DNA of 64,000 bases from Zingiber officinale (Eukaryota > Streptophyta > Magnoliopsida > Zingiberales > Zingiberaceae), in contig NC_055987.1 of the NCBI RefSeq assembly GCF_018446385.1, positions 32,120,202-32,184,201 of the forward strand, read 5' to 3'. The position numbers were made by a program, and so were the translations under genes. A model generated the notes under the pieces. That model ran no database searches. It saw nothing but the letters and a program-made list of their open reading frames with translations, and had not been told where the DNA came from. Position 1 is the stretch's first letter. Each line of letters starts with the position of its first letter. Positions 1,204 to 55,938 of the stretch are shown piece by piece.

Positions 1204-3140
1204 TGTTGGGTTTTTCGGGTCGCGAAAACCCCGAAACTCCCTAGCTAACGGATCCGTGCGAAGAGTATAGAACAAAATTTTTACATGTACGAGTTTACTA
1301 ACTAGATCTACTCTTAGATCTATATGTTTAGAAAATTACCCTTGATGCGTGCCCTTTTCGAATCCCTCTCGTCCAAGGAAGTGCCGGATCTTAAGATTGT
1401 CAACATAGACAATCCTCTAGAAGTATCCACACGAACAAGATGTGTTCTCTAACACACAAGGATGGAGAAGAGAACACCACAAGTGTGCTAGCACTTCTTG
1501 ATGCTCTCGGATGGGATTGGAAGAAGAAGAAAGGAAAAGAAGAGAACACACTCCTCTAAAATCTCTATGTGACTTTCACTAACCTTTCTTCTTCGATTAG
1601 ATTCACTCTCCTTTCTTCTCCCTTGCTTGAAACCCACGACCAAGAGAAGAGAAGGAGCAAAAAGAGAGCTTGAGGAAGAAGATGATGTGAATGTGAGTGA
1701 ATGAAAAATTCATTCTCATTCAAAACCAAAAAGGTAACCCCCATTCTCATTAAATATGACCATTAAAGAGAATAGATTTATAACCCCCATGAGGTGACAC
1801 ACTTTGATGATGTGGCACATCATCATTAGTTCTCCTAATGCCAAATCACTAATGATGTGGCAAATAGTCAAGTCAAACTTGACTCTTCCTCTTCCTCTCA
1901 AGTCAAGTCAAACTTGACTTAATCTCTCTCATGGTTGATCTAATCCAACCATTTAATTCAAGCCAATTTAATATAATGAATCTAATTCATTTAATTAAAT
2001 TGATTCAATGAGTCATAATCTAAATTAGACTCATTGAACACATAAATCAACTTGAGTCTAACTCAATTAGCCCAATTAGGATTACTCTTAATCCAATTTG
2101 ATTCATCACATGAATCTAATCCTCTTGGTTCATCATATGAACCTAATCTCCATCCACTTGTTCTTTGTGTGTGACCCAATAGGTTCTTGTAACGTTGGCA
2201 ATGCCCCTAAACTCATTTAGAAGCATAAGTAATGAACGATATCTAGCAATACATCATTACTACCCAAGTTACAAGAATGTTGAGATCCAACATCACCTTG
2301 TGACTACTAATTGTGACTCCTCACAATATATGACAAGTGTCCTTCTATCCTAGACATCTAGATTGATCAATGTGAGACATACACCATGTCATCCTCTAAT
2401 CAATCTAAATCTTGAACTCCAAGTAGACTCACTCGATCAAATGAGCTCAATATCTCATATTGACTCATTTGGGCATGGCCATGCACTTCGTGGTCTCACT
2501 CTATCAAGAATATCGATGTCGCTCCCGTCATATAGGAGGGATAGATCCCATCTACATCACTCACATCCCTCCGTATAATTTGTTACATACCCAGTAATCG
2601 CCTTTATAGTCCATCCAGTTACGGGTGACGTTTGACGAAACCAAAGTACATAACTCCTTATGTAGGGAACCATGGTGACTTCAGGTCTAAGGACTAGTAG
2701 TCATACTAATAGCCACATGAGAAAGTATATGACACTCATATAACGATCCATGATACTTTCTCATGGCGGGTCATTCAGTATACATTCTCTAATGCATACC
2801 CATGTGTCAACTTGATATCTCTATATCCATGACTTGTGAGATCAAGTCATTGAGTTGACCTACATGCTAGTCTTATTGCATTAACATTGTCCCTGAATGT
2901 TAATACTCGACTAGGAATGATTAAGAGTAGTGTTCCCTATATCATCTCACTATCGATTCAACCAATTGATTGATATGGGTAAGAACCTTCTACTCAAGGA
3001 CGTTATTATACTCAGTTTATTTGGCACCAATACAAGTAAGTATAATAACCAAAAACCAAATGCCTTTATTTATATAGAATATGATACAACAAGTCCAAAA
3101 TACAATCATCAAATGATTGAGTCTAGGGCTCTAGCTAACA
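1204..3140 (-). repeat. 3' LTR of the Angela-like element
   Basis: This 1937-bp terminal repeat is nearly identical to 8181-10138. The other copy has an extra short duplication of the CGCGAAAACC region near its TGTTGGG end. Confidence 0.93.
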
Positions 3141-8180: not shown

Positions 8181-10138
8181 TGTTGGGTTTTTCGGGCCGT
8201 GAAAACCGCTTTTTCGCGTCGCGGAAACCCCGAAACTCCCTAGCCAACGGATCCGTGCGAAGAGTATAGAACAAAATTTTTACATGTACGAGTTTACTAA
8301 CTAGATCTACTCTTAGATCTATATGTTTAGAAAATTACCCTTGATGCGTGCCCTTTTCAAATCCCGCTCGTCCAAGGAAGTGCCGGATCTCAAGATTGCC
8401 AACGTAGACAATCCTCTAGAAGTATCCACACGAACAAGATGTGTTCTCTAACACACAAGGATGGAGAAGAGAACACCACAAGTGTGCTAGCACTTATTGA
8501 TGCTCTTGGATGGGATTGGAAGAAGAAGAAAGGAAAAGAAGAGAACACACTCCTCTAAAATCTCTATGTGACTTTCACTAACCTTTCTTCTTGGATTAGA
8601 TTCACTCTCCTTTCTTCTCCTTGCTTGAAACCCACGACCAAAAGAAGAGAAGGAGCAAAAAGAGAGCTTGAGGAAGAAGATAATGTGAATGTGAGTGAAT
8701 GAAAAATTCATTCTCATTCAAAACCAAAAAGGTAACCCCCATTCTCATTAAATGTGGCCATTAAAGAGAATAGATTTGTAACCCCCATGAGGTGGCACAC
8801 TTTGATGATGTGGCACATCATCATTAGTCCTCCTAATGCTAAATCACTAATGATATGGCAAATAGTCAAGTCAAACTTGACTCTTCCTCTTCCTCTCAAG
8901 TCAAGTCAAAATTGACTTAATCTCTCTCATGGTTGATCTAATCCAACCATTTAATTCAAGTCAATTTAATATAATGAATCTAATTCATTTAATTAAATTG
9001 ATTCAATGCGTCATAATCTAAATTAGACTCATTGAACACATGAATCAACTTGAGTCTAACTCAATTAGCCCAATTAGGATTACTCTTAATCCAATTTGAT
9101 TCATCACATGAATCTAATCCTCTTGGTTCATCATATGAACCTAATCTCCATCCACTTATTCTTTGTGTGTGACCCAATAGGTTCTTGTAACGTTGGCAAT
9201 GCCCCTAAACTCATTTAGAAGCATAAGTAATGAGCGGTATCTAGCAATACATCATTACTACCCAAGTTACAAGAATGTTGAGATCCAACATCACCTTGTG
9301 ACTACTAATTGTGACTCCTCACAATATATGACAAGTGTCCTTCTATCCTAGACATCTAGATTGATCAATGTGAGGCATAGACCGTGTCATCCTCTAATCA
9401 ATCTAAATCTTGAACTCCAAGTAGACTCACTCGATCAAATGAGCTCAATATCTCATATTGACTCATTTGGGCATGACCATGCACTTCGTGGTCTCACTCT
9501 ATCAAGAATATCGATGTCGCTCCCGTCATATAGGAGGGATAGATCCCATCTACATCACTCACATCCCTCCGCATAATTTGTTACATACCCAGTAATCGCC
9601 TTTATAGTCCACCCAGTTACGGGTGACGTTTGACGAAACCAAAGTACATAACTCCTTATGTAGGGAACCATGGTGACTTCAGGTCTAAGGACTAGTAGTC
9701 ATACTAATAGCCACATGAGAAAGTATATGACACTCATATAACGATCCATGATACTTTCTCATGACGGGTCATTCAGTATACATTCTCTAATGCATACCCA
9801 TGTGTCAACTTGATATCTCTATATCCATGACTTGTGAGATCAAGTCATTGAGTTGACCTACATGCTAGTCTTATTGCATTAACATTATCCCTGAATGTTA
9901 ATACTCGACTAGGAATGAATAAGAGTAGTGTTCCCTATATCATCTCACTATCGATTCAACCAATCGATCGATATAGGTAAAAACCTTCTACTCAAGGTCG
10001 TTATTATACTCAGTTTATTTGGCACCAATACAAGTAAGTATAATAACCAAAAACCAAATGCCTTTATTTATATAGAATATGATACAACAAGTCCAAAATA
10101 CAATCATCAAATGATTGGCTCTAGGGCTCTAGCTAACA
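8181..10138 (-). repeat. 5' LTR of the Angela-like element
   Basis: This 1958-bp copy of the LTR starts TGTTGGG and ends CTAACA. It is joined to the primer-binding site on its left, so it is the upstream LTR for minus-strand transcription. Confidence 0.93.
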
Positions 10139-33930: not shown

Positions 33931-34839
33931 GCTTTCTAATATCACTAACCCAAGATATTTCTAAAAATTTCTCTGCTCATAATGTTGTCAATTCTAAGAT
34001 GTGGAACTAAAAAGAATTCTAGATTTCTAATTGATTAATAAGAAAAATTCTCAATAATATAACACAGCTAAGTCTCGAACTCTAGATCTCTGATTGATTA
34101 ATGAAAAAAATTCTAGAAGTTTCTCTGCTCGTAATGTTGCCAATTCTAAGATGTGGACTAAAGAGAATCGTGCAGAGCAACAAGACAAAGATGCACAAAA
34201 GGAGAGCAAACACGAGGAAGGAGAAGAAGAGAAAGAAAAAGAGTTAACGTGGTTTGGCGGTCTGCCTACACAAAAACGGTCGAAGCTTTATTAGAATTCT
34301 CTCTACACGAAAGAATCACATCTAATGATTTTTGTGTTGTTGTTGTTATCCAATTCATGTCGAGATTTACTCCTACCACGCTCTTGGTTACTATTTACCA
34401 CAAGTCCTCCTTGAGAAATTTCATCGCTTGTTTTTTTCCTTTGGTGAAAACCTAGCAACGCACTTGTGATCTTTTCCAATTTGAGAGCTTCCTTACCCCA
34501 CATCAAAGTAGTAACCAAATTCTCGTACGTAGGAGATGAAGGTAGAGAATTCAACAACATCAGTGCCTTGTCTCCGTCTTCGATCTTCACATCAACCCGC
34601 TTTAGATCACTTATAATATGGTTGAATACGTTGATGTGCTGGCTCAGATTGGTTCCTTCTATCATCTTCAACCCGAATAATTTCTGCTTAAAATACAGCT
34701 TGTTTGTTAATGACTTTGACATGTACCGACTTTCCAACTTTTGCCAAACTACCACCGGTGACTCGTCATCCATGACATGATACATCACATCATCCATAAG
34801 ACAAAGCCTGATTGTTGATACTGTCTTCGCCTGAAGTTC

Positions 34840-35887
34840 TGTTGGTGCGATTAGCATTAACGATTTAACCCAGGTTTTGATGAATGACAAATCAGGTTAA
34901 GTTAGTTTGTTGTTGTCTAACACTCTGATCGAGTGTGTAGGAGAAGTCCAGACAGGTCGACGGGCTGACCGGATGTCTGGCACGAAGCCCAGCTAGGTCG
35001 ACGGGCTGACCGGATAGCTGGCGAGAAGTCCAAGCGGGTCGACGGGCTGACCGGACGCTTGGTGAGAAGTCCAGCTAGGTCGACGGGCTGACCGGATAGC
35101 TGACACGAAGTCTAGACGGGTTGACGGGCTGACCGGACGTCTGGCAGGTAAGTGAGGTAAGTCACTGGAGGGGAGTGACTGCGAGGACGCATTCCCGGGA
35201 AGGGAACATTAGGCGTCGATCCGGCTTAGATCCATTTTGGATATCTAAGTCGAGATCGTGACTAGATTCCGGTCTCGGAAAGACGGAATCTAAGTCATAC
35301 TTTTTCTGTTAATTCATTGTGCTGTGTTGCAGGGTATATTTTGCCTCGGACTAACCTTGTTTTGCAGGAGAAGGAATCTCTGGAAAAAGGTGGTCTGGGC
35401 GCCCGGAGGCAAGTTTTATCCTCTGCGTCGCCTTGCCACGTGGAGCATCTTGACTGGACTTGCCACGTCGCACCAGGGCGCCCGGAAGGGATCCAGGCGT
35501 CCGGAGCAGCATATAAAAGAAGCCCCAGGGGTGGAGCTTCTAAAGTACATCTCTCAGAATTCCCAGATTGCTTTGCTGCTCTGTGCTCCAGCGACGCTAA
35601 CAAAGCTCCGACAACGCGCCCTTGCTCTTTAAGTTTTCTTTTCTGTCGGTACAGCTTTGTGTTTTGTTTCATTAGCATTTCTTGTACTCTTTTTGTAATC
35701 ACATTCGAATTGCTAGTGATTGCCCAACGAAAGTGGTCAAGGACCACGGGACTTCGAGTAGGAGTCGTCACAGGCTCCGAACGAAGTAAAATCAATTGTG
35801 TTCATTTACTTTTCCGCTGCGTACTTTTACACTCGAGTTTTCGAATCGATATTCACCCCCCCTCTATCGAACGATCACGGTCCAACA
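34840..35887 (+). mobile_element. Solo LTR of the SIRE-like family
   Basis: The 1048-bp LTR starts TGTTGGTGCGATTAGC and ends GGTCCAACA. It is flanked by AGTTC on both sides (34835-34839 and 35888-35892), a perfect 5-bp target duplication. It resembles the LTRs at 46366 and 54860. It carries a 41-bp hairpin array near its start and a GGGCGCCCGG box at about 35397. A TATA-like CATATAAAAGAAG lies at about 35510. The 195-residue frame across it is an accident of LTR sequence. Confidence 0.92.
34948..35144. repeat. Hairpin-forming 41-bp tandem array, five units
   Basis: Left arms start at 34948, 34989, 35030, 35071 and 35112, exactly 41 bp apart. Each unit is a 7-base arm, GGTCGACGGGCTGACCGGA (GGTTG... 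in the last unit), then the complementary arm. Arm pairs are CCAGACA/TGTCTGG, CCAGCTA/TAGCTGG, CCAAGCG/CGCTTGG, CCAGCTA/TAGCTGA and CTAGACG/CGTCTGG. Three pairs are perfect and two have one mismatch or wobble. Inside, GGTC and GACC can also pair. Confidence 0.95.
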
Positions 35888-36092
35888 AGTTCTTCCCAAT
35901 CTGATCTCTCCATGCTTTCTAGTTTTCTTTCTCCTAGTGCCTTCACCATGCCTTGTTGCACCAATAAGTCCTTGACCCTTATCTACCATAATCCAAAGTT
36001 TTCGATTCCGTCAAATTTCACCATATCAAACTTCGCAGAAGTTACCCCTGACATGTTGAAGAAATCCGCTAAAAACCTGTAGCTCTGATACC

Positions 36093-38500
36093 AATTGTGA
36101 ATCTCCATCCCAAGAATCTTCTTGGTCTCTCCCAAATCTTTCATGTCAAATTCCTTGCTCAATAGCCTCTTCAATTTGTCAACCTCTTTCATCTTCTTCG
36201 CAATAATGAGCATGCCATCTACGTATAGTAGTAAGAAAATCAGTGATTCATCTTCAAGGCTCTTCACATATATACAGCAGTCATACTCATATCTCCTATA
36301 TCTGTTTTGAATCATGTATGAATCAAAACGTTTGTACCATTACCTAGGAGATTATTTCAATTCATAGAGTAATTTCTTCAACTTGCAAACCAACTGCTCT
36401 TGTCCAGGCTGACTAAATCCCTCGGGTTATGACATAAAAATCTGCTCTTCCAAATTTTCATGAAGAAATGTCATCTTCACATCCATTTGTTCCAACTGTA
36501 AATCGTGATGTGCCACTAAAGCCAACACCGCTCTAATTAACGTATGTCTTACTATCGGAGAGAAAATTTCTTCATAGTCAATACATTTTCTCTGTGAATA
36601 CCCCTTTGCTACCAATCAAGTCTTGAACTTCACTTCTTCTCCCTCTGACATTGCTTCTTTCTTCATGAATATCCACTTGCGCTCTATAGCTTTCTCTCCT
36701 TCAGGAAGTTCCGCTAGATCCCACGTTTGGTTTTTATGCAACGACTCCATCTCCTCTGCCATAGCACTCATCCACCTGTCCTTCTCAGAGCCGTGTATCG
36801 ACTCCTGAAAAGATGTAAGGTCTCCGCTACTAGTGATAAGCGCATAAGATACTAAGTCTTCGAATCTGTATCTGGTGGGTGGTTTTATAACTCGTCTTGT
36901 TCTGCCACCAGCTATAGTACGATGCTCCGTGTGTTTTGAGCTAGAATCATCGAAATTATGAGTCTCTAGCTCCACCTACACAATATCTTTCTCTATGTTG
37001 CTATATGGTGTTTCCTTTTCTTCTTCCCGAGTACACTGTAACATAACTTTCTCGTCAAACACCACATCTCTGCTGATCACCACCTTGTTTGCCTTAAGAT
37101 CCCAAAGCTTGAAGCCTTTAACTCCTTTCTGATACCCCAGAAATATGCACTGCTTTGACTTCGCATCTAGCTTTGATCTTTCCTCACTAGATATCTGTAT
37201 ATAGGTTGGACATCCAAAAACTCGAAGATGAGAGTAATCTACTTGATTCCTTGTCCATACTTCCTTTGATACTTTGTCTTCTAGTGCTGCCCTTGGTGAT
37301 CTATTAATGAGATAACATGCCATGTTAACTACTTCCGTCCAGAAATTCTTTGCAAGCCCTGCATTCAGCTTGAGGCATCTTGTCTTCTCAATGATTGTCC
37401 TGTTTAACCTTTCCGCTACCCCATTCTACTGAGGTGTCCTGCGAACCGAGAAATGTTTCATTATCTCATGCTGCTCACAAAATTCCTGAAACTTTAAATT
37501 TGTGTACTTAGTCCCATTGTCTGACCTAATGTATTTAATCTTTCTTCCGGTCTGGTTCTCCACTTCCGTTTTCCACAATTTAAACTTTGCAAAAGTTTCC
37601 GACTTGTGACATATAAAGTATACCCAGACCTTTCGTGAGAAATCATTAGAAAAACTCACAAAATACAAGTGTCCTCCATGTGATGCTACACTGGCTGGTT
37701 CCAAAGATCTGTATGTACGTAGTCCAGAATCTCTTCCGTCTTGTTTGCTGCCATCTTGAATTGCACTTTGCTCTATTTCCCAAGAACACAGAATTTGTAG
37801 AATTCAAGCTTACACGTCTTGACACCCTTCAACAAATCTCTCTTGTGAAGTTATAGCATCCCACGTTCACCCATATGCCCTAGCCACATATGCCATAAGA
37901 CAGTACTGTCTGATTCAGACTCCACTAAAGTGGCTCCACCTACAACTGTAGTCCCTATCAACTTGTAGATATTTCCTGCTACCTTTTGTCCTTTCATTAC
38001 CGTTAGAACTCCCTTGCTGACCTTCATCACCTCGCTTACTGATTTATAATTGCAACCAATACCATCCAATGTGCCTAGTGAGATCAAGTTCTTCCTTAGC
38101 TCTGGTATATATCTGACATTATATAAAGTTCTGATCACACCATCAAACATCCTGATTCTGACGTTCCCTATGCCGATAACTTTGCATGACACATCGTTTC
38201 TTATTAATACTGAACCAGAATGCACTGCCTTATAGGTGTCAAACCAATCCTTGTTTGGAGTCATGTGATATGAACATGCAGAGTCTAAAATCTATGCATC
38301 AGTCAGTCACTCCGAACTTGACATAACTGATAGCATATCTCCATCATCGCTTTTTAAATTTTCTTCTTCAACTACGTTTGCAGACTTTGCCAACCTACCT
38401 TTGTTCTCTGCAACATATTTCTTTATCTCTCGACAATCTCTTTTGATATGACCTTTGCCTTCACATTTGTAGCACGTGATCACCTTCTTCCTTCTCAATT
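36093..38500 (-). mobile_element. pol part of the TNT1-like fossil
   Basis: The minus strand reads, high to low: zinc knuckle CYKCEGKGHIKRDC (about 38480-38440); protease to GAG-pre-integrase (about 38260-37850); integrase core (FSNDFSRKVWVYF and IRSDNGTKY, about 37700-37430) and its C-terminal part with RTRRVIKPP. Reverse transcriptase follows (YVDGMLIIAK, about 36210). The RT end, RNase H and LTR are absent. Broken in several places. Confidence 0.8.
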
Positions 38501-46365: not shown

Positions 46366-47404
46366 TGTTGGTGCGGTTAGCACTAACGGTTTAACTCAAG
46401 TTTTGATGAATGACAAAATGGGTTAAGTTAGTTTCATTGTTATCTAACACTCTGATCGAGTGTGCAGGAGAAGCCCAGACAGGTCGATGGATTGACCTGA
46501 CGAAACCCAAGTAGGTCGACGGGTCGACCGGATAGCTTGCACGAAGTCCTAACGGGTTGACGGATTGACCAGACGTTTGAGACGAAGTCCAGCTAGGTCG
46601 ACGGGCTGACTGGATAGCTGGCACGAAGCCTAGATGGGTCGAAGGGCTAACCGGACGTCTGACAGGTAAGTCACTGGAGGAGAGTGACTGTGAGGACGCA
46701 TTCCCAGGAAGGGAACTTAGGCGCCGATCCGACTTAGAACCATGTCAGAACTCTAAGTCGAGATCCTGACTAGATTCCGGTCTCGGAGAGACGGAATCTA
46801 ATTAATATTCTGCTTAATTTTAAACTGTGCTAATACTCTGTGTTGTAGGATATATCTTATATTTGCCTCCGGACTAACGTTTTCTTGCAGGAAGGAATCT
46901 GCTAGAAAATGAGGGCCCGGGCGCTCGGAGGTGAACTTTTATCCACAACGTCATCTCGCCACGCGGAGCGCCCTGGTTGGCTCGGTTATATCATATTCAG
47001 GGCGCCCTGGAGGTTCTAGGCGCCTTGAACCTCCTATATAAGGAGGGTCAAGGCTGAAGTTTCAACAACAACTCACGATTCACTCTCTTGTGCTCCTGCG
47101 ACGCTGCGAAGATATTATGAGAAAGTGTTGTTTCTTTAATTCCTTCTTTTTGTCAGTATTATTTCTTTTTATTAGCATTCTTGTACTTCATTTGTAAACA
47201 ACTATTCCGAATTGCTAGTAAATTGCCCATCGAAAGCACCCTTGCGTGCGGGCCTTTGAGTAGGAGTTGACACAGGCTCCGAACCAAGTAAAACTACTTG
47301 TGTCGCTCTTTCATTCACTTTATTATTTTCCGCTGCGTATTCTCGATAATTTTTTAATCGATATCCACCCCCTCCCCCCTCTATCGAACGCTTACGATCC
47401 AACA
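46366..47404 (+). repeat. 5' LTR of the SIRE-like element
   Basis: The 1039-bp LTR has a decayed hairpin array at 46475-46662 and the palindrome CAGGGCGCCCTG at 46998-47009. A TATA-like CTATATAAGGAGG lies at about 47034. The R-U5 part ends at the primer site. Confidence 0.92.
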
Positions 47405-47683
47405 AGTGGTATCAGAGCAGGTACCACTTTGATTTGGTGCAACCACTAATCAGACAGGGGGTGAAACTAGTTTTTTTCTCTCTTTTCTTTCTTTCGTCGG
47501 CTTTCAGATTTTCATAATTTTCCAAACTGGTACTATTACCTTTTTGGAAACCTTTTTCGTCGTAATCAATCTGAATTGGTGCAACACTAATTCAATTTTT
47601 AAATTATTTCTATTTTATCCCGCACTACTAATCCAAGACCTAGTCTTGGGACCTTTTTGTCTTTTTCTTTACTTGTGTGCAGG

Positions 47684-49116
47684 ATGTCTCAAATTGAAGG
47701 CTTCAGCATAGTACGTCCTTCCCTGTTCAACGGGGATGATTTTTCGTACTGGAAAAAGCGGATGGAGGTGTATCTAAAGACGGATTTCAACCAATGTTTC
47801 AGCGTTACCAGAGGCTACAAGACGCCGATCGACAACTCCCGAATCCCACTGGACCCAGAACAGTGGATTCCGGATATGAAGAAGAAAGCTTCAACGGAAT
47901 TCAAAGCACTCAACACGCTCTAGTGCGGACTGACGAAGAAAGAATTGAACCGGGTAAGACCGCATCAGAACGCAAAGGAATTGTGGGACAAATTGGTCAA
48001 ACTACACGAAGGACAAGCGATGCCAAGGTAACGAAGCGCGACCTATTATTAAATAGGTTATTTAATATTAAAATGCAAGAAGGAGAAACGACAAGTCAGC
48101 TTCACGTGAGGATTAAAGATATCCTCAACAGACTCCATGCGATAGGACACCAAATGGAAAATCGAGATCTAATCAGGTACGCGTTAAACGCTTTTCCACG
48201 CAACACTTTGTGGGCATCTATCGTGGATGCCTACAAAATTTTAAAAAATTTATCCAAATTAAAATTAGATGAATTATTTTGTGAGTTAGAGTTACATGAG
48301 CAGACTAACACTGGATCCGAGAAAGGTGTTGCCTTATTTGTAGGTTCCTCCAAGGAGAGATCTAAAAACAAGCCTGAACCCGAAGAAGAGTCTGATCAGG
48401 AGACTGAAGATGAAGAGTATCTAGTGAACCTGGTAAGGAAAATGTTCACTATGAGAAAGAAGAGCTTTAGCAAAAAGGACCTGCAAAAGATCAACACTCC
48501 CGAACCAAAGAACGTAATGTGCTTCGGGTGCAACAAGAAGGGACACTACAAGAACGAGTATCCGAAACTGAAGAGCGACAAGACAAAGGCATCCAAGAAG
48601 AAGGCTCTCAAAGCGACTTGGGACGACTCCTCCTCGGACGAATCAGAGGCCGAAGATCAGAAGCGCTAGAGCCACCTCGCGCTGATGGCCCTCGCAGAAG
48701 AATCGGACGAAGAATCGGAAGACGGGTCCGAACTTGAATCGAGCCACGAGTCCGTGCTCGTTTCCGAAGGTCCCGACGAGGTAAATCTTAATTTAAATAG
48801 AAAATTCTTTAAAATTATTTCGTGCTTGAATAAGAAATTGACAATACTAGAAAATGAAAATAAAACGCTCCTTGAGGAAAATCAAAACCTCAAGGAACAA
48901 AGCACAAAATCAAATCCAACTCAAGATCCAACACTTGAGGAGGAGAATTTATCACTAAAAATAGAAATTAACAAATTAAAAGAAATGTTAGAAAAATTTA
49001 CAACTAGATCTAAGAATTTAGATCTAATTTTAAATAATCAAAAAGTAATTTACAACAAAATTGGACTTGGCTACAGGTCAAGTTCGAATAAAACATTTAA
49101 ATCGTTAATAACATAA
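47684..49116 (+). mobile_element. gag region of the SIRE-like element
   Basis: It begins MSQIEGFSIVRPSLFNGDDF, the usual SIRE-type gag start. A UBN2-type core, a CCHC-like knuckle (CFGCNKKGHYKNEYPK, about 48520), an acidic stretch and a C-terminal coiled coil follow (ENENKTLLEENQNLKEQ, about 48850-48900). The coiled coil ends FTTRSKNLDLIL. It is the structural protein precursor of a broken fossil. Confidence 0.88.
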
Positions 49117-50600
49117 CACAAACAATCAAGTAAAGCTTGGGTTCCGAAAGCATGCTTAACCACGCAAGTAGGACTTAACCAATACTACATACCCAAAGAA
49201 AATATATATTATGTAAAATCAAATAAATCAACTCAAAAACAAAAATATAAACCTAGACTAACAAATTCAAAATCCAAATATTTTAAACCCCACCAAGACT
49301 TAGAATATCATCAAGTAAATTATAACTATAAAAAGAATAGACATAAACCAAGAACTACAAATCAAAAATAAAGGCCAATAATTCAGGGGGAGACTCCAGG
49401 ATAGCTGGCACCTCCAAAACTAACCTACCCGACAGGATAACCCAAACTAACCTACCCGGCAGGGTAACTAGGACTAATTAGAAAAGGGACCAAGTTTAAC
49501 TTGACCTATGGTACTAGTGAAGTTTTGGATGATAGTACGTTAGGGAAGCTTAGTCTATGCATGTCTAGGAAGATATGACTTCGACCTGGTGCATTTGGCT
49601 ATGTGGAACTGACCGAAGCTATCCTTCATGGATCATAACCAGTTAAACCAAGGTTTTGTATTAAGTTTAGTGGATAGGACTATTTGAAAAACCTCGAAGG
49701 CATGGTTACTCAAATGATGTCCAAGTGACTCACCATAGCTCAGAAGTTTATCCAAAGAATGTCTATTTGTTGAGCCTAAAACTAGACCTGAATTTAACAC
49801 AAAGTTAAACCAAACCCTAAAACTAAACCCAATTCATCTCACAAAATTATAGGATTCCCTGATTGAAAATGTAGATCGGGTGAGATGACTAAGGACTCAA
49901 TTAAATTAAAATTAAAATTAATTAAATTAAATTAAATTAAATTAAATCAAATTAAATAAAAATTATTTTAAAAATTCTTTTAAAAACTTTAAAATTTTAT
50001 TTTAAAAATTCTTTTAAAAACTTTAAAAAAGTATTTTAAAAACTTTAAAAATTATTTTAAAAAATCTTTTAAAAAACACTTTAAAAATTATTTTAAAAAC
50101 GTTAAAAAAATTATTTTAAAAACTTTAAAAATTATTTTAAAAATTCTTTAAAAAGAAATTTTAAAAATTATTTTAAAAATTCTTTTAAAAACTTTTAAAA
50201 AATATTTTAAAAATTCTTTTTAAAACTTTAAAAATTATTTTAAAAACTTTAAAAAATTATTTTATTTTTTTTAAACTATAAAAGTTATTTTAAAAATTAT
50301 TTTTTAAAAAAACTTTAAAAGTTATTTTAAAAACTTTAAAAATTCTTTTAAAAACGTTAAAAATTATTTTAAAAATTCTTTTAAAAAAGTTTTAAAATTA
50401 TTTTAAAAAATTTAAAAATTATTTTAAAAATACTTAATTTTTTTAAAAATTAACTTAAAATTAATTTGAAAACTAACTTAAATTATTTTAAAATTAACTT
50501 AAAAATTTATTTTAAATTAACTTAAAATTTATTTTTAACTAACTTAAGAGTTATTTTAAAACTAACCTAAAAATTTTATCAGCCTGAAGTTAGACTAATT
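49117..50600 (+). repeat. Spacer between gag and pol with an AT-rich minisatellite
   Basis: The first 800 bp are non-coding, with repeats of CTAACCTACCCG.CAGG. From about 49905 to 50560 the sequence is almost only A and T, made of TTTTAAAAA(C/T)T-like words repeated dozens of times. It has no coding value. Confidence 0.8.
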
Positions 50601-53600
50601 GTAGTTATTGCCTATTGTAGAAACCAAGTGGATTTTGGATAGTGGTTGCTCCAAACATATGACTGGAGATTACACCAAATTCACCCAACTTACTTACAAA
50701 AGCTTAGGAACAGATGCCTTTGGAAACAATGGCAAACTCAAAGTAATTGGTATAGGTAACATTGAGCTAAAATTTGACTTCATTATTACAAATGTCTTAC
50801 TTGTTGAAAATTCCAAGTATAATCTCCTAAGTATCAGTCAATTGTGTGACACTAGGTATAAGGTTAGGTTCTTATCTACGGAATGCTTAATCAAACACCT
50901 AGATAATTCTACTATAAGTCTAAAAGGGTTTAGAAAAGACAACATCTATGTAATTAAGTTAACCACTTCTTCAATTAAGTGTTATTTAACACAAAAAGAA
51001 GAAACTTGGTTATGACATAGAAGAATGTCACACACAAATTTTAGAAATATAAGCAAATTAAATGGATTAGTTAGAGGTTTACCAAAATTACCTAACTTAG
51101 ACTCAACCATATGTAATGCTTGTCAACAAGGCAAACAAACAAAATCTACCCACAAACCAATTAATCAATCTAAAACTAATTCAATACTAGAACTTTTACA
51201 TCTAGACCTGTTTGACTCTCATGGGGGAAAATCAATAAATGGTAATTTATATTGTCTAGTAATAATAGATGACTACTCTAGGTTCACTTGAGTAAAATTC
51301 TTAAAAAATAAGGATGAAACCTTTGAAATTTTTACAAACTTTTGTAAGCAAGTTGAAAATGAAAAAGATCCTAAAATTAAGAGAATTAGAAGTGATAATG
51401 GGGGAGAATTTAAAAATCATAGCTTTAATAAATTTTGTCTTGAAAATGGTTATCATCACAAATTTTTGTGCCCTAAAACTCCTCAACAAAATGGGATTGT
51501 AGAAAGAAAAAATAGAACTTTACTTGAAGCCTCTAGAACTATGTTAAATGAATATAATCTTCCCAAATATTTTTGGGCAGAAGTTGTTAGTACAGCTTGC
51601 TACGTGCAAAATAGAACAACCCTAAATAAAGTACATAATAAAACCTTTTTCGAAGTTTATTATAATAAACAACCCAATATAAAATATTTTAAAGTATTTG
51701 GGCGCCCAGCCTTCATCTTAAACACAAGGGAACATTTAGGAAAATTTACTTCTAAAGTAGAAAATGGAATTTTTGTGGGATATTCACTCAACAGTAGGGA
51801 ATACAGAATATATAATAAGGTTACATTAAGAATTGAAGAAACCACCAATGTAAAATTTGAGGAATCCAAACCAAACTTAGATCAAACCCAACTTCAACCA
51901 ATTGAGTTCATTCAAAGCAATAGTAATCAAGAAGGAACCAATCAAGACTTAAATTATGAAGAGAAAGTAAGAACTCAAGAAAATTAACCTCTTAGAACCA
52001 TAAGAGTCAACCCAAACCATCCAACTGACCAGATAATTGGTGATTCAGACCTAAGGGTTCAAACTAGGTCATCCTTTAGAAACCTAAGTCAAATTTCTTT
52101 AATTTCAAAAATCAAACCTAAAACCATAGCTGAATCCTTACTTGACCCAGACTGGGTCATAGCTATGCAGGAGGAACTAGTTCAATTTGAGCAAAATGAA
52201 GTTTGAGATTTAGTACCACCACCCAAAAATAAAAAAGTAATAGAAACAAAGTGGGTATTTAGAAATAAACTAGTGAAACTGAAGAAATTACTAGAAATAA
52301 AGCTAGGCTAGTTGCTAAAGGGTTTAGTCAAGTAGAAAAACTTGACTATGATGAAACTTATGCCCCAGTAGCTAGATTAGAGTCCATTAGAATGTTACTC
52401 AGCTATGCAGGCCATAAAGGGTTCAGATTGTATCAAATGGACGTTAAATCTACCTTCCTAAATGGATTAATAAAAGAAGAAGTCTATGTAGAACAATCAC
52501 CTGGGTTTGAAAGTCTAGAACATTCTGACTATGTGTTTAAATTAAAAAAAAGCTTTATATGGACTTAAGCAAGCACCTAGGGCATAGTTTGAAAGACTAA
52601 CTTCTTACCTAATATCCAAAGGGTTTAACCAAGGTCAAATTGACCCAACCCTATTCGTTAAGTTAATAAACGAGGATATTTTTATAACCCAAATCTATGT
52701 AGATGATATATTTTTTGGTTCAACTAATCCAAAATTTTTAGATGAATTTACAAATCTAATGGAGCAAGAATTTGAAATGAGCCTAGTAGGCAAATTAACT
52801 TACTTTTTAGAATTACAAATCAAACAAACAAATGAAGGTAATTATATTTATAAAAAAAAATACACTAAAGAATTACTTAAAAAAAATGGAATGGAAAATA
52901 CTAAAGAAATAAAAACACCTATGACAGTAAACACAATCCTAGATGACGACGCCAATGGAAAACCAGTTGACCAAAAATACTATAGGAGTGTTATAGGTAG
53001 CCTACTGTACTTAACTACAAGTTGACTCGATATCTTATTTGTAGTTAGTATGTGTGCTAGATACCAAACCTGTGCTAAAGAATCTCATTTGACTCAAGTC
53101 AAAAGAATCTTTAGATACCTTAAAGAAACAACAAATGTAGGTATCTGTTATCCTATAACTAATAATTTTGAATTAATAGGGTATTCTGACTCAGATTATG
53201 CTGGGTGCAAATTAGACCGTAAAAGTACAAGTGGTGGATGTCAACTACTAGGTTCATCACTTGTTAGCTGGTTTAGTAGAAAGCAACACTGTGTTGCTCT
53301 ATCCACAACTGAGTCAGAATATATAGCCATAAGAGAATGTGTTGCATAACTATTATGAATGATGCACACTTTAAAAGATTTTAACTTAAACCTTACAAAT
53401 GTAAAAGTATTAATTGACAATATTAGTTCAATTAATTTAACAAAAAAATCTAGTGCATCATTCTAGAACCAAACACATTGAAATTAGGCATCACTTTATT
53501 AGGAATCATGTCACTAAAGGAGATATTGAACTCAAGTACATTGAGTCAAAATCTAATTTAGCTGACATATTTACTAAACTCCTCCTTGAAAGTGAGTTTA

Positions 53601-53641: not shown

Positions 53642-54859
53642 GGATTTTAAAATTATTTTCAAAAGTGGTTATTTTCAAATTCTAAGGTAAAATGCTTTTA
53701 TGTTTTCAAAATTTCCTATTTTTAGAATTTCAAAAACAGTTTTAACCTTAGACTAGGATAATCCCTTAGAAAGCATGTTTCCCTAGGGCTAGTACTTGAG
53801 CATCTCACCAACACCTTAGGATTTCCTTGTTTGTGATTGTCAAACATAGAAAGGGGTGAGATGCATAGGCAAATTGCCTGGACTTAAGATGCTTATGTCA
53901 ATGTATCGATATAAGTCTGGGCGTTAAATACCAAACAGATATTAATCAAGTTAAGTCATTCAGTGTAGTAAAACACTAACCGATGCTTAGACTTAATTTG
54001 ACTAACCAAGTGAAAACTGCTATTCTCTAATAGTTAGTGAGTAGCTAACTGGTTAGACAGATTTTGTAATGTCAGGTTCAGGGGGAGGTTAGTTATTTTT
54101 TATACTTATTTTAATTTTTGAAAAATACCTCTTTTAAAATCAAATCAAACCTAAGTGTTTTAAAATTTCTTTTTTGGATTTTTCAAAATTAGTTTTGAAA
54201 GTTAAAATCATTTTTGAAAATTAGCTTTATTTTCAAATTTTAAACTTTTCAAAATCAACTTTGAAAATGAAAACGTCTAAACTTACTTTTTGATTTAAAC
54301 CCTCCAAACTTCAGGAAAAAGTTGGGTTTGAAAATTGGACTCTTTAAAATGGTATTTTTGGAAATTGTATTCTACTTAGGCTTAAAAACATATTTTTGAA
54401 AATTGATTACTTGACTTGTAAATTGAACTTAACCCTAATATTTTTTACTATCTTTGTAAATTATGTTTCCAAATTGTAAAACTCTTTTTGAAAAATTAAG
54501 TTAAAATTACAATTATCCTTTGAAAGTTAAACGTAGCTACTTTTTGGAAAAAAAGATAAAAGTTAAAAACTTAAGTCATTTTTCTATGTTATACTCCTCC
54601 AAGATAATCGGACTTACATTTCTAGATTGTTTTTTTTTTTTTTACATTTTTTCAATTTCAAAAAATTACAATCTACATTTTTTTATGTTATTCTATGTTA
54701 ATTTTTTGATGAATACCAAAGGGGGAGGGTTTGGTGATTAAGTTAGTTAAACAAACAGAACAAAATTTAAAAGCTAAACTTAACAACCTTATGCTTGTTT
54801 TTACTTGTATATTTATCACTAACTTAACTAGGTTGTCATTGCATCAAAAAGGGGGAGAT
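53642..54859 (+). mobile_element. 3' untranslated part of the SIRE-like element
   Basis: This is non-coding sequence after RNase H. SIRE-type elements often carry an extra 3' frame here, but I see only short frames. It ends with the polypurine tract at 54846-54858. Confidence 0.7.
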
Positions 54860-55938
54860 TGTTGGTGCGGTTAGCACTAACGGTCTAACTCAAGTTTTTA
54901 TTAATGACAAAATAGGTTAAGTTAGTTTCATTGTTATCTAACACTCTGATCGAGTGTGCAGGAGAAGCCCAGACAGGTCGACGGGCTGACCTGATGAAGC
55001 CCAGCTAGGTTGATGGGCCGACCTGATAGCTGGCACGAAATCCAAATGGGTCGACGAGCTGACCGCACGTTTGACACGAAGTCCAGCTAGGTCGACGGAC
55101 TGACCAGATAACTGGCACGAAACCCAGACGGGTCGAAGGGCTGACCGGACATCTGGCAGATAAGTGAAGGTAAGTCACTAGAGGAGAGTGACTATGAGGA
55201 CGCATTCCCAGGAAGGGAACTTAGGCGCCGATCCGACTTAGAACCATGTAGGAACTCTAAGTCGAGATCCTAACTAGATTTCGGTCTCAGAGAGACGGAA
55301 TCTAATTAATATTCTGCTTAATTTTAAACTGTACTAATACTCTGTGTTGCAGGATATATCTTATATTTACCTCCGGACTAACGTTTTCTTGCAGGAAGGA
55401 ATCTGTTGAAAAATGAGGGTCCGGGCACTCGGGAGGGGTCCGAGCGCCCGGAGGTGAAATTTTATCCACAACGTCATCTCACCACGCGGAGCGCCTTGGT
55501 TGGCTCGGCTACATCATATTCAGGGCGCCCTGGAGGTTCCAGGCGCCCTGGAGGTTCCAGGCGCCCTGAACCTCCTATATAAGGAGGGTCAAGGCTGAAG
55601 CTCTAACAACAACTCACGATTCGCTCTCTTGTGCTCCTGCGACGCTGCGAAGATATTCTGACAAAGTGTTGTTTCTTTAATTCCTTCTTTTTTTCAGTAT
55701 TATTTCTTTTTATTCGCATTCTTGTACTTCATTTGTAAACAACTATTTCGAATTGCTAGTAAATTGCCCATTGAAAGTACCCTTGCGTGCGGGCCTTGGA
55801 GTAGGAGTCGACACAAGCTCCGAACCAAGTAAAACTACTTGTGTCGCTCTTTCATTCGCTTTATTATTTTCCATTGCATATTCTCGATAATTTTTTAATC
55901 GATATTCACCTCCTCTATCGAACGCTTACGATCCAACA
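54860..55938 (+). repeat. 3' LTR of the SIRE-like element
   Basis: This 1079-bp copy has the array at 54969-55156 and an extra copy of the AGGCGCCCTGGAGGTTCC unit near 55521-55570 compared with the 5' LTR. Confidence 0.92.

Follow-up and report, generated by a model that had tools for sequence, protein, structure and literature searches.

The window analysed here, a stretch of 64,000 nucleotides from the genome of ginger (Zingiber officinale), contains a solitary long terminal repeat (LTR) of a copia-type retrotransposon, flanked by a target-site duplication (AGTTC) and carrying a tandem array of five hairpin units (Table 1). The solo LTR is 80–81% identical, over its first 570–607 bases, to two other LTRs in the window (54860–55938 and 46366–47404), which bound a related, decayed element with a target duplication of its own (CTATG). 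The array sits in the U3 region, at LTR positions of approximately 103 to 307, and a TATA-like box follows at about position 671. GGCGCC-type boxes located 5' of the TATA box, at 35398–35510 and 55524–55570, are possibly a second set of palindromic repeats. The solo LTR itself seemingly lies within a minus-strand copia element (34500–36150), with a gag-like stretch, recognized by eye, on one side and GCTCTGATACCA, which resembles a primer-binding site, at 36082 on the other. Elsewhere in the window a 1.93-kb direct repeat (1211–3140 and 8210–10138; 97.7% identical) presumably represents the LTRs of another, younger element; when the copy at 1211–3140 was checked for a similar array none was found, and 25 scattered inverted repeats were seen instead.

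The array occupies 34942–35146 of the plus strand and comprises hairpin units with a period of 41 bp, whose arm types run in the order A-B-C-B-D. The cores, GGTCGACGGGCTGACCGGA, begin at 34955, 34996, 35037, 35078 and 35119, a spacing of exactly 41, and the fifth differs by a single change (GGTTGAC). TRF recovers the same array independently, with a period of 41 and a score of 235. Direct reading confirms the description given in an earlier note on this DNA, namely five units at 41-bp spacing with paired arms of seven bases, perfect in three of the five units and with one flaw each in the remaining two; these two flawed units are the product of ordinary decay. The predicted fold of a unit is a composite hairpin, in which an outer stem of seven pairs is followed by a GGA bulge, an inner stem (GGTCG/TGACC) and a six-base loop (ACGGGC). 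A search of Rfam with 34700–36000 returned no match at gathering score, both of its hits being sub-threshold (Twister-sister, 19.1 bits against a cut-off of 34; SNORD109A, 22.6 against 35). The Twister-sister match, at 34985–35071, is probably a chance product of the stem-loops.

Table 1. Features of the two LTR-bearing loci, the five hairpin units and the common arm types (5' arm/3' arm).
Feature	Position	Strand	Details
Target-site duplication AGTTC, left	34835..34839	.	flanks solo LTR
Solo LTR, Sirevirus-type copia element, TGTTGG...CCAACA	34840..35887	+	identified by likeness to two window LTRs
Unit 1, type A	34948..34980	+	CCAGACA / core / TGTCTGG; perfect arms
Unit 2, type B	34989..35021	+	CCAGCTA / core / TAGCTGG; perfect arms
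Unit 3, type C	35030..35062	+	CCAAGCG / core / CGCTTGG; perfect arms; 9,283 exact 33-mers genome-wide
Unit 4, decayed type B	35071..35103	+	CCAGCTA / core / TAGCTGA; one C.A mismatch
Unit 5, decayed type D	35112..35144	+	CTAGACG / core / CGTCTGG; one T.G wobble; one core change
TATA-like box	35511..35517	+	GGCGCC-type boxes upstream, at LTR positions 558, 637 and 656
Target-site duplication AGTTC, right	35888..35892	.	flanks solo LTR
5' LTR of related element	46366..47404	+	similar array inside; first core at 46482
Primer-binding site TGGTATCAGAGC	47407..47418	+	junction CA/AGTGG-TATCAGAGC
gag open frame	47794..48669	+	Retrotran_gag_2, E 7.3e-06, 26 bits, just under Pfam cut-off of 27
Copia-type reverse transcriptase (RVT_2)	52269..53022	+	two pieces, searched apart
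Terminal polypurine tract AGGGGGAG + AT	54850..54859	+	adjoins 3' LTR (TG at 54860)
3' LTR of related element	54860..55938	+	first core at 54976
Common types A, B, C			A CCAGACA/TGTCTGG; B CCAGCTA/TAGCTGG; C CCAAGCG/CGCTTGG
Common types C', D, E			C' CCAAACG/CGTTTGG; D CCAGACG/CGTCTGG; E CCAGACT/TGTCTGG

The related element

Pfam searches of the related element returned, besides the entries in Table 1, a retroviral SH3-like domain and a piece of the integrase core that scored under its cut-off. Judged by the signs defined in Bousios et al. 2010 (PMC2829016), the sequence is that of a Sirevirus-type copia element, an assignment drawn from its polypurine tract (PPT), LTR junction, C-rich signal and inverted repeat. 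The tract AGGGGGAG is found 10 bp before the 3' LTR and is followed by AT/TG. PPT octamers are clustered ahead of this LTR, with copies at 54080 and 54720 in addition to that at 54850, and one lies far upstream at 49385; the mean for Sireviruses is put at four PPT copies per linker in PMC2829016. An inverted repeat surrounds the junction between PPT and 3' LTR, its left arm ending at the PPT and aligning with the reverse complement of the LTR start over some 33 columns. At the end of the 5' LTR, the junction CA/A(T or G)TGG followed by TATCAGAGC is present in its G variant, which is on record (PMC2829016), as CAACAAGTGGTATCAGAGC. Close to its end the 5' LTR has the C-rich integrase signal as CCACCCCCTCCCCCC; the solo LTR has CACCCCCCCTC, and the signal is weaker in the 3' LTR of the related element (CACCTCCTC).

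Both LTRs of this element (46468–46515 and 54962–55009) have a first unit that is nine bases short and without its 3' arm. Since the loss is common to both, it probably predates insertion, and since the element was mobilised despite having such a unit, not every unit can be needed.

Arm pairing across the family

The exact 19-base core occurs 41,825 times genome-wide and its backward reading not once; the assembly contains both haplotypes, and alleles are counted twice in this and the other genome-wide counts. With a unit finder blind to the arms, we collected 139 arrays containing 728 units from places with the exact core, from LTRs similar to the window LTR and from three diverged subfamilies. 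Between 2 and 8 units were detected per LTR. Four two-unit arrays and a duplicate record of the window array were dropped, leaving 134 arrays and 715 units; because loci were picked by exact core or by likeness to chosen LTRs, this sample is not random. A tree was built from 127 of these arrays, seven with flanks too short for the purpose being left out.

In these 134 arrays (715 units) the Watson-Crick fraction at the four variable arm pairs is 0.873, compared to 0.544 ± 0.011 where the 3' arms are shuffled within their array (the best of 500 shuffles reaching 0.580) and 0.321 for arms that adjoin a common linker (134 arrays). The central claim of the earlier note, that pairing is kept while stem sequence changes, is borne out in sampled copies of four subfamilies; neither of the two results it had named as fatal to that claim was obtained, shuffled arms being less complementary than true partners and the pattern extending beyond the copy in the window.

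Inherited arm types

The matched arms are inherited types and are not made afresh in each copy. Six types are common (Table 1), and they track both subfamily and array slot. Units in the most diverged group are mainly of type B with A in last place; a second group (L015) has B and E units, with D last in most; in the group to which the window's second element belongs the order is A-B-C'-B-D, and in that of the solo LTR array it is A-B-C-B-D. Ranked by frequency after B, A, D and C, the inner arm combinations continue with a B form that carries one G.T (42 units), followed by E with 36 and C' with 22; the G.T form is counted, by our choice, as decay of B. Among the six common types, positions that are partners form Watson-Crick pairs in 23 of 24 cases, against 9 of 72 for positions that are not, and 2 of 720 permutations equal the observed value. 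Two rare types, CCAAGAG/CTCTTGG (type F, in two elements) and CCACCTA/TAGGTGG (type G, in one), were obtained from searches for transversions at a single pair in which purine still faces pyrimidine, and are therefore excluded from the unbiased count; including them gives 31 of 32 partner pairs, with 2 of 40,320 permutations as good, in a comparison for which the search favoured paired forms. One array of six units (L139) includes two arm sets that are uncommon and pair perfectly, CCAAATG/CATTTGG and CCAAGAG/CTCTTGG.

When the types are joined in a parsimonious, unrooted network of our own choosing, the pair changes that separate them are two-sided and complementary in five of six cases among the common types, and in seven of eight with the rare types added, the sole one-sided step being from A to E. 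Treating steps as independent, five of six two-sided changes would arise by chance with P = 4e-7 at a decay rate of 0.0375, or P = 3e-5 at the highest per-pair rate (that of pair 6), and the independent events behind the network are few, perhaps 5 to 8. At pair 5 of type C, genome-wide counts are 9,283 for G:C, 143 for A:T, 120 for G.T and 83 for A.C. Independent change predicts approximately one A:T by hand calculation, where 143 are found, and the A:T form must accordingly be an inherited type. C and C' are separated by a transition, and both single-change forms exist, possibly as products of later decay and not as ancestors. Type E has a stable T.T mismatch next to the core in many copies of one subfamily (L098–L132). 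In the inner stem one pair has changed on one side only, being predominantly G:C in the most diverged group and G.T in the three others; an inner G.T pair is present in 526 of the 715 units.

Decay in resident copies

Types were assigned to 700 of the 715 units, the 15 that were too distant being dropped. Within types, both sides of a pair have changed in 26 cases where 24.2 are expected after correction for copy age, bearing in mind that large double changes may go unseen when a unit is given the type nearest to it; 21 of these 26 are complementary, as two matched deaminations would yield. Compensation at the level of individual copies is rejected, in sum, on this comparison. Pair 6 alone has 7 doubles against 2.4 expected (single-test P 0.012, without CpG correction) and the other pairs no clear excess, so that the absence of copy-level covariation is true in sum and not for each pair. 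Doubles being near chance within types, resident copies lose their pairing without overall compensation. Here single changes break pairs just as the earlier note had expected of random drift. Covariation is strong among inherited types and absent in sum among copies; pairing was maintained in replicating lineages and decays in resident copies.

The earlier note left a choice between selection on the folded molecule and a copying process that regenerates both arms together. That pairing is kept has been seen above, but active regeneration of arms in copies finds no echo in doubles that stand near chance. Double transversions are also very rare, amounting genome-wide to five places at pair 6, of which two are fully complementary, and one at pair 4 (searches of these two pairs, with the exact core only), and type E keeps its T.T, both of which speak against regeneration of arms in copies. 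A rarer event is harder to dismiss. Hairpin-templated copying, during reverse transcription or DNA repair, could change both arms at once and the new type could then spread with no selection on the fold; a few such one-step events in the history of the family would look like selection, especially where transversions are concerned. This would account for two-sided transversions lacking a wobble intermediate (A to B at pair 5, C to F, B to G), and it accords with the readiness with which the arrays rearrange. We nevertheless consider it unlikely, if deserving of serious attention. The scarcity of double transversions and the near-chance number of partner doubles, pair 6 excepted, tell against it, hairpin correction should have erased the T.T of type E and the inner G.T pair, and C and C' differ by a transition for which both single-change forms are present, even if those forms may have arisen by later decay. 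Were arms rebuilt from one another, many private matched types should be seen and mismatches should disappear; with double transversions nearly absent at the two pairs searched and mismatches persisting, selection is favoured.

Evidence for rearrangement comes from 20 LTR pairs, in two of which the flanks were out of register. Where the two LTRs are at least 98% identical upstream, a figure that covers approximately 100 bases only, 7 of 15 pairs differ in detected unit number, although a unit may have escaped detection through the limits of the 601-base stretch or of the unit finder; in two elements, one LTR contains chimeric units. Among these pairs (L145–L184) either rearrangement is more rapid in the array than in its flank, or the array is difficult to assemble. 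There are 154 B/C chimeras in the whole genome, and clear chimeras account for 2 of 715 and 4 of 218 units in our samples. Among 100 of the 154 chimera places, 4 of 94 clusters are present in both LTRs, compared to 19 of 51 matched type C clusters among 100 of 9,283 places. We set this aside as evidence of selection, because the pattern may only reflect the formation of chimeras after insertion.

Folding and the nature of the folded molecule

Folded as a whole, the array on the plus strand shows no unusual stability (z −1.24; 26 of 200 shuffles as good), the minus strand is relatively more stable (z −2.57; 3 of 200), and in the best global fold of the plus strand only unit 3 retains its self-pairing. 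The order A-B-C-B-D is almost mirror-symmetric, and global folding of 34942–35146 favours one long fold with unit 3 at its tip. With the pairing span limited to 40, units 1 to 4 fold as the predicted hairpin, with 5 to 7 of the 7 outer and all 5 inner pairs, and unit 5 forms the outer stem only; the z values under this local folding are −2.51 for the plus and −3.15 for the minus strand. The array as a whole does not fold as a row of hairpins. Folded singly, units from the window have energies of −9.5 to −12.4 kcal/mol when the 3' arm is their own, and a mean of −8.0 when 3' arms are swapped among them (20 swaps), values that are relative only, since the folded 33-mers were cut one base early. 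The idea that neighbouring arms are kept different to prevent cross-pairing finds no support, given that a model array of the form A-B-C-B-D also folds mainly across units.

The relatively greater stability of the minus strand means that folding does not favour sense RNA, and wobble pairs are equivocal. Pooled single changes comprise 223 G.U and 197 A.C (P 0.22). Pair 1 runs in the opposite direction (36 G.U against 77 A.C); at pairs 2 to 6 taken together G.U is the commoner (183 against 117), a grouping picked post hoc. At pair 5 of type C, the 120 G.T against 83 A.C give P 0.011, and clusters found in both LTRs number 17 for G.T (from 100 of the 120 places) and 8 for A.C (from all 83), for which Fisher P is 0.084, or 0.27 within the same territory.

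The transcript of a retroelement is single-stranded and has U3 in its 3' end, and sense RNA tolerates the inner G.T pair. A protein that reads double-stranded DNA could not require 'any matching arms', and hence the signal points to a folded single strand. That the fold matters as DNA, a fold-back or cruciform upstream of the promoter that acts as an enhancer or sets the chromatin state, a role suggested more widely for U3 repeats of palindromic form, seems to us quite unlikely. Stems of 7 and 5 pairs interrupted by a bulge would be rather short to extrude as a cruciform, and the inner G.T, in DNA a mismatch, is present in most units of three of the four subfamilies. On the other hand, the position of the array in U3, upstream of a TATA-like box, would suit a role in DNA, as would a wobble test without overall strand bias and a minus strand that folds relatively better, and the palindromic boxes of Sirevirus U3 regions were read as possibly cis-regulatory by their discoverers (PMC2829016).

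Discussion

Our preferred reading is that the array is a palindromic U3 structure whose fold has been kept by selection in active lineages, and that the molecule which folds is most likely the RNA of the element; we would put the probability of this at roughly one in two. The core is almost constant, and the outer arms belong to a few inherited types that are mostly complementary double changes apart. Duplication of units, together with transposition, may have spread the arm types, while selection in active lineages would have preserved the capacity of each unit to fold on itself, the core presumably being recognised by its sequence and the arms by pairing alone. Less securely, the folded molecule would most likely be element RNA, with U3 at its 3' end, and the stem-loops might serve there as binding or regulatory sites. 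A more general statement would be that in active Sirevirus lineages selection for base pairing acts on a succession of stem-loops, whose recognition core is fixed and whose typed arms can be exchanged; we put it forward tentatively, as possible but short of even odds. That nothing but ancestry is at work, chance or copied palindromic units having been amplified with no constraint on pairing ever needed, is very improbable, for although most units fall into few types and the pairing of any copy is inherited, it leaves the two-sided complementary changes between types (five of six; P 4e-7 at the decay rate) unexplained.

If selection on the fold is correct, the U3 region of a plant LTR retrotransposon would contain a structure supported by covariation, one that can be read because decaying copies, in their thousands, provide a built-in neutral control. 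Sirevirus U3 palindromes have been viewed in two ways, as regulatory sites and as structures to which small RNAs are drawn, and the question has been raised why elements retain structures that invite silencing (PMC10760457). Matched changes in active lineages, set against free decay in residents, would show that the fold is worth keeping, and its value becomes testable by comparing paired with re-paired arm mutants.

Tnt1 and other plant copia elements also have short tandem U3 repeats, sometimes palindromic, that in them act as enhancers; we know of no matched arm changes in boxes of the Tnt1 type. Closer parallels exist in Sireviruses, where arrays of a palindromic repeated motif (RM) in U3 were published in 2010 (Bousios et al. 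2010; PMC2829016), and the earlier note, which knew of no such array in copia LTRs, needs correcting on this point. Like the ginger array, RM boxes are repeated palindromes that precede the TATA box within the upper half of the LTR, and their sequence varies across elements yet remains palindromic (Table 3 of PMC2829016). They differ in being short, simple palindromes, with a CGG-CCG core in all but one and at least eight copies per element (PMC2829016), whereas in ginger a unit is a 33-base hairpin of composite build, its variable arms distinct from a conserved core, and 2 to 8 units are detected per LTR. Types A and B read AGGTC...GACCGG and only C and D have a 5' CGG too; lacking a consistent CGG-CCG core, and being composite in build, the ginger array is termed RM-like and not RM. 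The words 'compensatory', 'hairpin', 'cruciform' and 'covari' do not occur in PMC2829016, and we found no report of matched arm changes within such units in literature titles and the beginnings of abstracts, a body of text in which subscription journals are little covered. Later work ties such Sirevirus palindromes to hairpins and small RNAs (PMC5311732, PMC10760457): a study of 2016, as related in those two articles, describes clusters of palindromes in maize LTRs with predicted secondary structure and an excess of small RNAs, built on the motif CACCGGACNNNGTCCGGTG, with no arm types in the passages that describe it. Palindromic arrays in U3 are, then, already known in Sireviruses, and the matched changes of the stems are the new part.
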